From Candidatus Sulfotelmatobacter sp. (lineage in GTDB: Bacteria; Acidobacteriota; Terriglobia; Terriglobales; Acidobacteriaceae): a stretch of 64,000 nucleotides of DNA. Positions 50,298 through 54,321 of the stretch are shown here, one piece after another. The stretch's first letter is position 1, and each line of letters opens with the position of its first letter. The position numbers and the translations under genes are program-made. The notes beneath the pieces are model-generated. The model was not told where the DNA came from, searched no databases, and saw only the letters and a program-made list of their open reading frames with translations. The stretch is from assembly GCA_030041215.1 (NCBI GenBank), contig JASHOH010000094.1, forward strand, positions 1 through 64,000, read 5' to 3'.

Positions 50298-53141
50298 GTG
50301 TCGAAGTCACTTGCCAATAGGAAGTGGGTCTGTGCGCTGTGCGCCGTCCCACTGATCGTCATCGCGTCGTTTGCTCTGTTTCTCGGCTCACACAATCGCG
50401 CGGCTAAAACTGTTGCAGCTGAACCCGCGGGGCGCGCGCGCCTTCGGGCAAGCTATGCCGCGCTTCCGCTTGCCTTTGAACAGAACCAGGGGCAGACCGA
50501 CTCTGAGGTCAAGTACATGGCCCGCGGAGATGGATACACTCTGTTTCTGACCCCGAACGAGGCCGTCTTTTCGCTGCGGTCACGGTCCAAAGCCGAAGAC
50601 TCCTCCACGCAGCGTCCGAACCTGCGCCCGAAAAATTTCGCGCAGCCGGGTGCTCACCAGGAAACCACTGCTGTCGTGCGCATGAAGCTGGCAGGCGCGA
50701 ATCCGCCGGTGCAGGTCTCCGCGAGCGACCTGCTGCCGGGCAAGAGCAACTATTTCATCGGCAATGATCCGGCCAACTGGCGCACCGATGTTCCGCATTA
50801 CGCGCGTGTTTCTTATCAGGACGTCTATCCCGGCGTAGACCTCGCCTTCCACGGCGCACAGAGCCAGACGGAGTTCGATTTCCTGATCGCTCCTGGCGCC
50901 GATCCCACGCCCATCGCTTTCAATTTCGCAGGCGCCCAGAGTGTCAGAACTGATGACGCAGGAAATCTGGCAGTTTCCTCCGCTGCCGGCAACATCATTC
51001 TGCACAAGCCCGTGGCTTATCAGGAAATCAACGGCTCGCGCCAGCTTGTGGACGCAAAATTTGTCATGCAGGCGGCAAACAAGATTGAGTTTGCATTAGG
51101 CAGCTACGATCGCAGCCGCGAGTTGGTGATCGACCCCAGCATCGCCTATGCGTTCTCGACATATCTTGGCGGCAGCGGCAACGATGAAGGTCAGGGCATC
51201 GGCATCGACAGCAACGGCAACATTTATGTGACCGGGCAGACGGCCTCCACCAACTTTCCGACGACGACCGGCGCGTTCCAAGGCACATGCGGAGGCTGCT
51301 CAACCGGGGGCTCCAACGTGTTTGTCAGCAAGATTGCGTCGGATGGCTCCAGCCTCATCTACTCCACTTATGTTGGCGGATCTGGCACCGATAGCGGAAA
51401 CAGCATCGCGATAGATTCTTCCGGCGACGTCTTCGTCGCGGGTGCGACATCATCTAAGAACTTCCCCAAAGCAGGCACTCCGTTCCAGGGTAGCTGTAAG
51501 AGTTGCACGAGCAGTTTAGCCAACAACGCGTTTGTGTTTGAGCTGAATTCGACCGGTTCGGCGCTCACATACTCCACTTACCTCGGCGGCACCGGTAACG
51601 ACGTCGCCTCGGGTATCGCTCTGGCGTCTGATGGCTCCGGAGACGTTTTGGTTGTTGGGTCAACGTCCTCAACAGACTTCCCAACCTCGAATCCTCTTCA
51701 AGGGCCCCCGACCCTGACAAACTTCACTGCCGCTTTCGTCACGAAGTTTAATTCCTCCGGCAGCGCCTTGGTTTATTCCACGTACCTTGGTGGGAGCACC
51801 ACCGGGGATAGGGCGACCTCAGTCGCCGTGGACGCCTCGGACAACTCCTATATCGCCGGCCAAACCTACAGTTCAACTTTCCCCACCACAACGGGAGCAT
51901 TTCAGACCACGTGCGGTGGTTGTGGTAGTGGCAATTCCAACGCGTTCGTGACCGTCATCAGCCCCACAGGAAGTAACTACGTCTATTCCACATTTCTCGG
52001 TGGCAGCGGTCCTGACAAAGGCGATGGCATCGCGGTGGACTCCTCCGACAACGCCTACATAACAGGGGCTACGGATTCGAATAACTTCCCCGTTCAGTCG
52101 CCGCTGCCCGGGCTAGGGAAGCTCCTGGGCGTCACCAACGCGTTCGTCACAAAGCTGAACCCCACAGGAAGCGCGCTTGTGTACTCCACCTATCTTGGGG
52201 GCAGCGGCTCTGATGCGGGCGCCAGCATCTCGCTCGATAGCGGTGGTGATGCCTATGTGACCGGCCAAACCAATTCCCCTGGGACGGGAAGCACTGCGTT
52301 TCCAACAGCGAATGCCATTCAAGCTACACTTGGCGGTGGCTACGACGCTTTTGTGAGCGAAATCAATCCGGCTGGTTCGCAGCTCATCTTCTCGACCTAC
52401 CTTGGCGGTTCACTCGATGAAGACGACGGCGGCAACTACGGAGCAATTGCAGTCGATAGCCCGGGCGCTAACATCTACGTAACCGGAAACACGGCTTCGA
52501 CAGACTTCCCGATACAGAATGCGTACCAGAATGCCAATGGCGGCGGTTCCAGCGGCACAACTGACGCCTTTGTCACGAAGTATGCCCAGCCAGCCTTTAG
52601 TGTTTCAGCTACCGCTCCTTCGTCCGTCAATCCCGGATCTCCGGCAACGTCCACGGTTACGCTAACTTCGTTCTACAGTTATGGCTCACCAGTTAATCTG
52701 AGCTGCACGGTCACCGGCAGTGGCTCTCCGCTTCCCGCGTGCAGCGCGACAAGTTTCTCGACAAATCCCGTAACGCCGACTTCGGCCGGCGCTACGTCCA
52801 CGCTCACAATAACCACGACTGGCCCGAGCAGCGCGCTGGCACATCCGAGATCGATTTTCTACGCGATGTGGTTGCCGGTCGCCGGCATATCGCTGGCCGG
52901 GTTCGGTTTCAGTTCGTCGGATTCGCGCCGACGCAAACTGTTCGGGATGCTCATGCTCCTTATGGTCATCTCCGCCATGCTGATCCTTCCCGCCTGCGGT
53001 GGCTCAAGCAGCAGCGGTGGAGGTGGTGGTGGTGGCGGTGGTGGCACACCGGCAGGCAATTATACGGTGACAATCACGGGCACGGGTACTGACACTAGCG
53101 TAACTACTCGCGCCACGACTGTAACCCTCACCGTCAATTAG
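50298..53141 (+). CDS. Seven-bladed SBBP propeller protein with C-terminal LPACGG tail
   Basis: A 947-residue exported protein; GTG start with AGGAGG six bases upstream. After the signal helix (VCALCAVPLIVIASFALFLG) comes an N-terminal domain of the kind that precedes SBBP repeats (PLAFEQNQGQTDSEVKYMAR). Seven SBBP repeats follow (YSTYLGGSGNDEGQGIGID... and six more), which fit one seven-bladed beta propeller. After an Ig-like segment the C terminus carries a membrane helix, SRRRK, a second helix ending LILPACGG, a ten-glycine run and a small beta domain. The tail matches that of the next gene. It is presumably a surface protein; the ligand is unknown. Confidence 0.88.
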   Translation: MSKSLANRKWVCALCAVPLIVIASFALFLGSHNRAAKTVAAEPAGRARLRASYAALPLAFEQNQGQTDSEVKYMARGDGYTLFLTPNEAVFSLRSRSKAEDSSTQRPNLRPKNFAQPGAHQETTAVVRMKLAGANPPVQVSASDLLPGKSNYFIGNDPANWRTDVPHYARVSYQDVYPGVDLAFHGAQSQTEFDFLIAPGADPTPIAFNFAGAQSVRTDDAGNLAVSSAAGNIILHKPVAYQEINGSRQLVDAKFVMQAANKIEFALGSYDRSRELVIDPSIAYAFSTYLGGSGNDEGQGIGIDSNGNIYVTGQTASTNFPTTTGAFQGTCGGCSTGGSNVFVSKIASDGSSLIYSTYVGGSGTDSGNSIAIDSSGDVFVAGATSSKNFPKAGTPFQGSCKSCTSSLANNAFVFELNSTGSALTYSTYLGGTGNDVASGIALASDGSGDVLVVGSTSSTDFPTSNPLQGPPTLTNFTAAFVTKFNSSGSALVYSTYLGGSTTGDRATSVAVDASDNSYIAGQTYSSTFPTTTGAFQTTCGGCGSGNSNAFVTVISPTGSNYVYSTFLGGSGPDKGDGIAVDSSDNAYITGATDSNNFPVQSPLPGLGKLLGVTNAFVTKLNPTGSALVYSTYLGGSGSDAGASISLDSGGDAYVTGQTNSPGTGSTAFPTANAIQATLGGGYDAFVSEINPAGSQLIFSTYLGGSLDEDDGGNYGAIAVDSPGANIYVTGNTASTDFPIQNAYQNANGGGSSGTTDAFVTKYAQPAFSVSATAPSSVNPGSPATSTVTLTSFYSYGSPVNLSCTVTGSGSPLPACSATSFSTNPVTPTSAGATSTLTITTTGPSSALAHPRSIFYAMWLPVAGISLAGFGFSSSDSRRRKLFGMLMLLMVISAMLILPACGGSSSSGGGGGGGGGGTPAGNYTVTITGTGTDTSVTTRATTVTLTVN

Positions 53142-53160
53142 CCACAATCTGAAACAGCTG

Positions 53161-53189
53161 AGGCCGCCTCAACGCGAGGCGGCCTTTTT
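53161..53189 (+). terminator. Strong intrinsic terminator after the SBBP gene
   Basis: AGGCCGCCTC, loop AACGC, GAGGCGGCCT and four more T: a perfect 10-bp GC-rich stem with a T tract, 19 bases after the stop codon. Confidence 0.88.
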
Positions 53190-53304
53190 CCTGCTTCCTT
53201 GAATTGGCACGAATCACAACTCTGATCTAAGATTCATTCGTACATATTCTCAAGCCCCAATTTATCTTCAAGCAGCGTTTGCGTTATCGGAGGAATCGAA
53301 GCTA

Positions 53305-54321
53305 GTGAGTTCCTGTCCCCTCATGATGAATCCCAGGCATATGGCGCGCCCCGTCGTTTTCGCATTATTGCTCGCTGCCGCAAGCATAGCTTCGGTTTCA
53401 GCCGCCCTTGCGCAAACAATTACGCTCACGCCCTCGCTTCCTTCCGCAGTCAACGCCGGCGACAGCGCCGTCGGTTCGCTCGGCGTTACTGCGAGTTTCG
53501 ATAACACCGTTACCTTCACATGCACGGTGACCTCGACCACAGTCACATCGAATCTGCCCACCTGCATAATCAGTCCCGATTCGGTCATCCCGCCGGCTAT
53601 TCCATCCATTACCATCACCACCTGTGGCGGCGTTACTTCGACATGCACCGGGCCTACCCCCACGGGCATCTATTCCATCGCCATTACCGGAACGAGCCAG
53701 ACACCGCCGGCGTCAGCAACCATCAATCTTGCGATCAACGTCGTGGGCAGCACCGCCCAGGACTATGCCCTTTCCGTGCAGCCTACGACAGCGAGCCCAA
53801 GTCCTGTCAGCCCGGGCAACTCCGCCACTACTACGGTGACTGTCTCGGGCATCGGGAGCTATTCAGGAACTGTCACGGTCGCCTGTCTTTCGATTACTCC
53901 GGTTGTTGAGGCCGAACCCTATTGCACGTTTAACCCACCCACCGTGACGGTATCGAGCGGCGGCCCGGCACAGACGACCACGCTGACCATTACAACCCTG
54001 GGCCCAGTACCGGTCGTCACCGAAGTGTTCCATCTCCCACGTGCGTTCTACGCTATATTCCTGGCCTTTCCCGGCATCGCGATAATTGGAGCAACCGGCA
54101 GCAGAAAACGCAGAACGAGATTTCTGGCATTTTTCCTGCTCGTGACTGTTGCCGGAAGCCTTCTGTTGTTGCCCGCCTGCGGCGGCACCACCAAGAACAA
54201 TCCCACTGGCCTGACCACGCCCAAGAACACTTATACGTTTACGCTGACCGCTACCGATAACAATGGAAACGGCCCCGCCAATTCCACCAACCCGGCCACA
54301 GTAACGCTGACGGTAGACTAG
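53305..54321 (+). CDS. Exported Ig-like protein with C-terminal LPACGG tail
   Basis: A 338-residue protein. The signal peptide (PVVFALLLAAASIASVSAALAQ) is followed by two Ig-like beta sandwiches (SVNAGDSAVGSLGVTASFDNTVTFTC, then SPGNSATTTVTVSGIGSYSGTVTVAC; parts quoted). The last ~100 residues are laid out like those of the SBBP protein: helix (FYAIFLAFPGIAIIGA), SRKRR, helix ending LLLLPACGG, then YTFTLTATDN and VTLTVD. The GTG start at 53305 or ATGs at 53323/53341 are all possible. Same strand as the SBBP gene, separated by a terminator, so it has its own promoter. Confidence 0.8.
   Translation: MSSCPLMMNPRHMARPVVFALLLAAASIASVSAALAQTITLTPSLPSAVNAGDSAVGSLGVTASFDNTVTFTCTVTSTTVTSNLPTCIISPDSVIPPAIPSITITTCGGVTSTCTGPTPTGIYSIAITGTSQTPPASATINLAINVVGSTAQDYALSVQPTTASPSPVSPGNSATTTVTVSGIGSYSGTVTVACLSITPVVEAEPYCTFNPPTVTVSSGGPAQTTTLTITTLGPVPVVTEVFHLPRAFYAIFLAFPGIAIIGATGSRKRRTRFLAFFLLVTVAGSLLLLPACGGTTKNNPTGLTTPKNTYTFTLTATDNNGNGPANSTNPATVTLTVD

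Follow-up and report, generated by a model that had tools for sequence, protein, structure and literature searches.

A lipoprotein-like signal within the last Ig-like domain of acidobacterial surface proteins and its possible use in a two-chain lipid anchor

Two neighbouring genes in the stretch of DNA analysed here (the window: 64,000 nucleotides of contig JASHOH010000094.1 from Candidatus Sulfotelmatobacter sp., phylum Acidobacteriota) encode different proteins with a common C-terminal tail, which we read as an internal type II (lipoprotein) signal peptide inserted into the last immunoglobulin-like (Ig-like) domain of its host. We put the probability of this reading at roughly 55%. The tail is itself already known by name; what is new is the split Ig-like anatomy, the clasp that its two halves may form, and a lipoprotein piece into which further domains can be inserted. 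From the anatomy we infer that the chain would be lipidated, cut and re-associated.

In both window proteins the tail proceeds in the order helix, Arg cluster, helix, LPAC-GG, linker and beta strands; the two helices with the loop between them are referred to as the hairpin. A previous inspection of this DNA, the sequence-only reading, had described a common C-terminal layout in otherwise unrelated proteins, and this observation is borne out, with 39% identity between the two tails and bodies that differ. Protein 1 (50298..53141, + strand, as are all features given here; defined by open reading frame (ORF), Pfam and NCBIfam) consists of DUF7948 and an SBBP beta-propeller followed by the split domain, and its C-terminal end reads IFYAMWLPVAGISLAGFGF..SRRRK..LILPACGG..YTVTITGT..VTLTVN. 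The first part of the split domain (strands A-E, 52584..52832) was located with the Ig profile and the tail profile introduced below. Hydropathy and sequence place a first hydrophobic helix, TM1, predicted to lead the chain from outside to inside, at 52854..52910, and a second, TM2, the putative h-region of the internal signal, at 52938..52988. The RRRK between them (52926..52937) is, on sequence and loop charge statistics, a predicted cytoplasmic loop and n-region. The lipobox-like LPAC (52986..52997) ends in the Cys predicted to be lipidated (52995-52997), with the predicted cut before it; a Gly/Ser linker follows in the sequence (52998..53045), and strands F-G, here called the latch (53046..53138; profiles and sequence), complete the domain. 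Protein 2 (53305..54321; ORF, NCBIfam and tail profile), in which the Pfam scan found no family over cut-off, shows by eye an N-terminal signal peptide of type I appearance (53323..53415, ..VSAALAQ), then by the tail profile one intact Ig-like domain (about 53416-53745) and the final, interrupted one. Its C-terminal end reads AFYAIFLAFPGIAIIGAT..SRKRRTR..LLLLPACGG..YTFTLTAT..VTLTVD. Strands A-E (53752..54006; AlphaFold2 model and profiles) are followed by TM1 (54046..54096; model helix 97-114 and sequence), the RKRR loop (54103..54114; sequence), TM2 (54121..54171; model helix 118-138 and sequence), the lipobox-like LPAC (54169..54180) with its predicted lipidated Cys (54178-54180), and the latch (54214..54318; model strands 159-169 and 182-188 and sequence).

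With hmmscan, both proteins match the NCBIfam family NF058595.1 ('invert_tail, lipo-invert putative C-terminal anchoring domain'), protein 1 at 83.7 bits (model positions 1-113) and protein 2 at 61.1 bits (1-112); the curated cut-off is 37 bits and the model length 113 positions. Because both match one curated domain model nearly end to end, the resemblance of the tails is not due to chance; both proteins are members of the family, and the tail has therefore already been named by curators. The NF058595 entry, in the form available to us, offers a name and a guess at anchoring without the split Ig-like domain, the latch or the domains inserted behind the Cys. No paper on the tail was found among open-licence PMC articles.

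The split of the domain was seen with profiles applied in both directions. A tail profile of 182 positions, built from tails plus 70 upstream residues, matched 70 distinct full tails and, in the same and in other proteins, intact Ig-like domains. Twenty-one of these intact domains were matched as two pieces, about model positions 2-83 and 150-182, which adjoin in the protein, with gaps of -11 to +9 residues, and stand 52-81 positions apart in the model; the model stretch skipped is exactly hairpin, lipobox and linker. Among the 59 first-part matches outside tails, 21 had an adjoining second part and 38 stood alone, many of them weak. For the reverse comparison, an Ig profile of 102 positions was made from the 21 intact domains only and applied to 127 distinct tails, of which 70 came from whole-genome loci and the window and the other 57 from named genome contigs. 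It matched 113 of the 127 in two places, ahead of the hairpin and again behind the Cys, the first piece ending near position 74-80, the second starting near 65-76, and the two meeting near 75; only the first part was found in 12 tails, and no usable pair in 2. Removal of the hairpin lets 118 of 125 tails match 80% or more of the Ig profile in one piece, compared to 3 of 125 when intact, and lifts the median score from 40.7 to 58.6 bits.

Structure prediction gives a corresponding picture. The AlphaFold2 model of the last domain of protein 2 (58 sequences, mean pLDDT 85.3) has strands up to residue 81 ahead of the helices and latch strands given above, and that of a second tail protein, L155 (54 sequences, mean pLDDT 84.7), has Ig halves mostly at 97-98 and a hairpin at about 60-68. 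Foldseek alone was weak, with 2 matches at E ≤0.001. Residues 2-174 of the L155 model align to the contiguous domain 404-502 of 2ber (97 residues aligned, rmsd 1.9, Z 12.9) and, at Z 13.2, to the contiguous 594-700 of 8jmw; for the protein 2 model the Z values are 11.8 against 8jmw and 10.7 against 2ber. Both halves of the tail domain together thus align to one Ig-like domain, that of the Vpr fibril form (8jmw) or of the Micromonospora sialidase (2ber), each of which is uninterrupted where the tail has its hairpin. The fold predicted from the models and these alignments is a single Ig-like domain in which one loop holds a membrane hairpin. Profiles and models agree, by prediction, that the beta strands of the tail belong to the final Ig-like domain as its last two, separated from the others by hairpin, lipobox and linker; the separate small beta domain previously seen in YTxTxT and VTLTV is better explained as half of this split domain.

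All 127 tails have the Cys, and it is preceded by Ala, Gly or Ser in 126, the other (L102) having Asn; the residue after it is Gly in 87, Ser in 26 and never Asp. The last Lys or Arg lies mostly 13-22 residues before the Cys, and in most tails the internal signal stands about 40-50 residues ahead of the stop. The two helices have median hydropathies of 1.97 and 2.14. Lys plus Arg number on average 4.1 in the loop, 1.8 in the 15 residues before TM1 and 0.4 in the 15 after the Cys, with the loop exceeding either flank in 111 of the 127. Charges and hydropathy fit a topology in which the N-terminal side would be out, the loop in and the Cys out, and the segment from loop through TM2 to Cys has the shape of a lipoprotein signal peptide. 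At the other end of the protein, among the 37 tail ORFs whose 5' end is visible, a crude rule classed the N-terminal signal as type I-like in 33 and as lipobox-like in 1. Ahead of TM1, the tail alignment contains no motif common to all tails; 101 of 118 aligned tails have a Pro a short way upstream of TM1, and 73 of 103 have a Trp at the TM1 start (L181-L210, L107 family).

Domains inserted behind the Cys, and what stays at the chain end when they are present, have a bearing on the role of the latch. A collection of 80 tail loci comprised 59 plain tails, 10 with inserted domains and 5 with long loops, together with 4 incomplete or unreadable entries (L114, L116, L127, L163) and 2 from outside the phylum, L164 (Catellatospora) and L167 (Chloroflexi), which are intact Ig domains without the tail. 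In L146 a domain of about 110 residues separates the Cys from the final strands. This domain occurs ten times in 60 genomes of the window's family (8 genomes), and 7 of the 8 relatives counted (L174 and L175 of the ten being left out) are ordinary lipoproteins with the domain directly behind an N-terminal lipobox; the other, L178, has a type I-like signal. Eight loci (L109, L110, L125, L126, L128, L133, L134, L142) from soil 'gp2' and related acidobacteria carry one to six Ig-like-looking repeats behind the Cys, and the same two strands end the chain; the repeats of L109, L128, L133 and L142 match no Pfam family and are Ig-like by eye. L154 has an fn3 domain between the Cys and the final strands. 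The search behind the 80 loci used a pattern inside the latch, and the latch is present there by selection. Because of this bias the search was repeated with a model that stops three residues past the Cys: in eight genomes of the family, the final strands were present in 29 of the 30 best loci, two of the 29 being weak by profile (L196, L203), and in L200, a gene from the family itself, they stand behind an inserted domain. That the last strands stay at the chain end even with inserted domains suggests that they act as a clasp to the split Ig-like domain. The exception among the 30 is a tail on contig C18 of the window's own genome, which is broken after the linker by a frameshift or an assembly error.

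The C18 gene (L019/L058/L190, G000:C18:101298-101543) ends 15 residues past the Cys, with the last strands lost, and strand-like sequence interrupted by stops is found in another frame (L020). L146 encodes a Kelch protein in which the tail is preceded by three stretches of 'choice-of-anchor Z' repeats; the number of their NCBIfam family, NF058597, is near that of NF058595. The long loops of L092, L121, L135, L138 and L156 lie between the two helices, on the predicted cytoplasmic side, and are much longer than usual (tens of residues).

In the mechanism that we propose, the internal signal would sit between the fifth and sixth strands of a secreted protein's last Ig-like domain. Export would be started by the N-terminal signal peptide and stopped by TM1; the basic loop would remain in the cytoplasm as n-region of the second signal, and TM2 would serve as its h-region, carrying the lipobox Cys to the outer face. 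Lgt would then lipidate the Cys and LspA cut the chain before it, and one gene would give rise to two chains: a body of strands A-E plus hairpin, and a lipoprotein piece starting with the acyl-Cys and ending with strands F-G. Refolding of F-G into the split domain would clasp the pieces together, and the body would thus be held by lipid. As for the enzymes involved, Lgt was found in 9/9 tail-bearing genomes tested, as was LolA, and LspA (PF01252) in 41 of 44 genomes of the family, including 35/35 of high quality. No LspA paralogue accompanies the tails, because PF01252 is single-copy in 40 of the 41 genomes with a match (G398 has two), and a dedicated paralogue was rejected on that count. The sequence-only reading had suggested looking for a co-occurring unknown membrane protease or acyltransferase; a special protease is not required by the data. 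That reading is partly supported. Its core, a C-terminal anchoring signal with a lipobox-like Cys before which the chain may be cut, agrees with the NCBIfam name and draws support from the conservation of the Cys and the residue before it and from the basic loop between the helices; its separate beta domain and the need for a special enzyme are not supported.

Several points weigh against the proposed mechanism. The strict lipobox pattern is [LVI][ASTVI][GAS]C, and only 35 of the 127 tails conform to it; both window proteins have Pro at position -2 of the Cys. A yardstick of N-terminal lipoproteins from the fetched loci failed (9 candidates, several spurious) and was dropped. Strands F-G in reversed order of residues still cover the Ig profile in 106 of 125 tails, at a lower score (39.7 compared to 58.6 bits), and true and reversed strands are therefore told apart by score and not by coverage (118 and 106 of 125). 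The structure-prediction tool has no knowledge of membranes. By the sorting rule of E. coli, Gly or Ser in place of Asp after the Cys would direct the lipid piece to the outer membrane, with the hairpin staying in the inner one. Lastly, TM1 could anchor the body alone, and the lipid looks redundant unless TM1 is also removed; if TM1 and TM2 hold the body without it, the lipid would be an additional anchor, the alternative being that TM1 is cut as well.

An uncut membrane hairpin, with TM1 and TM2 mooring the last Ig-like domain to the inner membrane and the Cys unmodified or lipidated without cutting, is unlikely in our estimate, albeit the strongest of the rivals: two helices and a basic loop are enough for mooring, and the AlphaFold models show a complete Ig-like domain without any cut, but the invariant Cys, the nearly invariant Ala, Gly or Ser before it, the Gly/Ser run behind it and the lipoprotein domain behind the Cys of L146 are left unexplained. 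Improbable to a somewhat greater degree is a scheme of two cuts. LspA would act at the Cys, and another intramembrane protease, be it a rhomboid, an exosortase-like enzyme or an unknown one, would cut ahead of TM1; the Ig-like domain would be left nicked, held by lipid alone and free to move to the outer membrane. TM1 with the basic cluster behind it does resemble a C-terminal sorting signal, Pro is common before TM1, the conflict between inner-membrane hairpin and outer-membrane lipid would disappear, and weaker rhomboid-like matches exist in 9/9 genomes. Yet the missing invariant motif before TM1 argues against it, as does the record of the candidate proteases: exosortase (PF09721) is present in only 23 of 44 genomes of the family, the window's own having one, and was not found in the tail-bearing G007, G023, G179, G321 and G394, while rhombosortase (TIGR03902) exceeded the curated cut-off in 0/9 genomes. 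On these same findings, the PEP-CTERM/exosortase and the GlyGly-CTERM/rhombosortase systems were rejected as identities of the tail. An internal translation start producing the piece from TM2 onward as a separate lipoprotein is very improbable: basic loop, TM2 and Cys alone do have the shape of a lipoprotein signal peptide, but a 125-tail alignment shows no position around the basic loop where a Met, Val or Leu start is conserved, and each of the ten over-cut-off tails of the genome is read in one unbroken frame.

Compared with known systems, the tail shares with bacterial lipoproteins, the substrates of Lgt and LspA, the basic n-region, hydrophobic h-region, lipobox-like Cys and Gly/Ser linker, and in L146 it carries a domain otherwise found in ordinary lipoproteins. 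Their signal is at the N terminus of the precursor, whereas that of the tail is internal, behind a complete secreted protein; because the signal is lipoprotein-like but not N-terminal, the tail proteins are not filed as classical lipoproteins. LPXTG, PEP-CTERM and GlyGly-CTERM signals have one helix and then a basic cluster near the C terminus, as in TM1 plus loop of the tail; they differ in that the tail chain continues, has no common motif before TM1 and does not require exosortase. The nearest published system is MYXO-CTERM/myxosortase, in which secreted proteins bear an invariant Cys, a hydrophobic helix and an Arg cluster at the C-terminal end, Lgt is proposed as lipidating enzyme and the absence of a lipobox is noted (PMC11980579). 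These elements recur in the tail, but the order reported for MYXO-CTERM is Cys, helix and Arg at the chain end, and that of the tail is helix, Arg, helix, lipobox Cys and exported strands. Order and topology are reversed, and the tail is not assigned to MYXO-CTERM.

The tail is widespread and extends well beyond the two window proteins, as a profile-based count across acidobacterial genomes, proposed with the sequence-only reading, has made clear; the condition named there as refuting it, a tail confined to these two proteins, clearly does not hold. The window's genome has 12 NF058595 rows, 10 of them over cut-off, which include both window proteins and the broken C18 tail. Four further tail proteins of this genome are two of kumamolisin type (Pro-kuma_activ), one DUF7948/SBBP/DUF11 and one FG-GAP protein (Pfam). 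A profile from a 32-tail alignment gave 11 to 21 matches in each of five genomes, some of them strands only. In a phylum sample of 396 genomes, 195 match NF058595 at E 0.001 and at least 49 exceed the cut-off, these counts being lower bounds because at most 11 candidates were scored per genome; the weak matches look mostly like plain Ig strands. All 44 genomes of the window's family match, the weakest at E 7.2e-12, and in the ordered list genomes without a match start only with other families. Terriglobus albidus (locus L091) belongs to the window's family. NF058595 misses L128, the locus with six inserted repeats.

Acidobacteria are abundant in soil, and we know of no account of how they fix large secreted proteins, such as propellers and subtilisin- or kumamolisin-like proteases, to the cell. 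If the proposed mechanism is true, type II signal peptides can occur elsewhere than at a protein's start, the ordinary Lgt/LspA machinery can lipidate near the C terminus, and the split Ig-like domain represents a self-made clasp; lipoprotein predictors restricted to N termini would overlook such proteins. Protein display might also make use of a split Ig clasp that assembles by itself. More tentatively, at somewhat short of even odds, the two-chain lipoprotein may be a general strategy in Acidobacteriota, with a split Ig clasp formed by strand complementation that carries extra domains and a hairpin removable by a second protease. The lipid piece with its extra domains would then be a surface module of its own, and loss of the hairpin through the second protease would give a nicked protein, held by its lipid alone, that could reach the outer membrane.

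Full tails also occur in the distant family f43 (G216:C4:191052-191405 and G272:C7:318655-318990; L036, L042), where few other genomes have one; transfer or patchy loss are possible explanations. Tail-bearing genes are neighbours in a genome of the same genus as well (G084:C13:41955-43546, L140), as they are in the window at 50298-54321.

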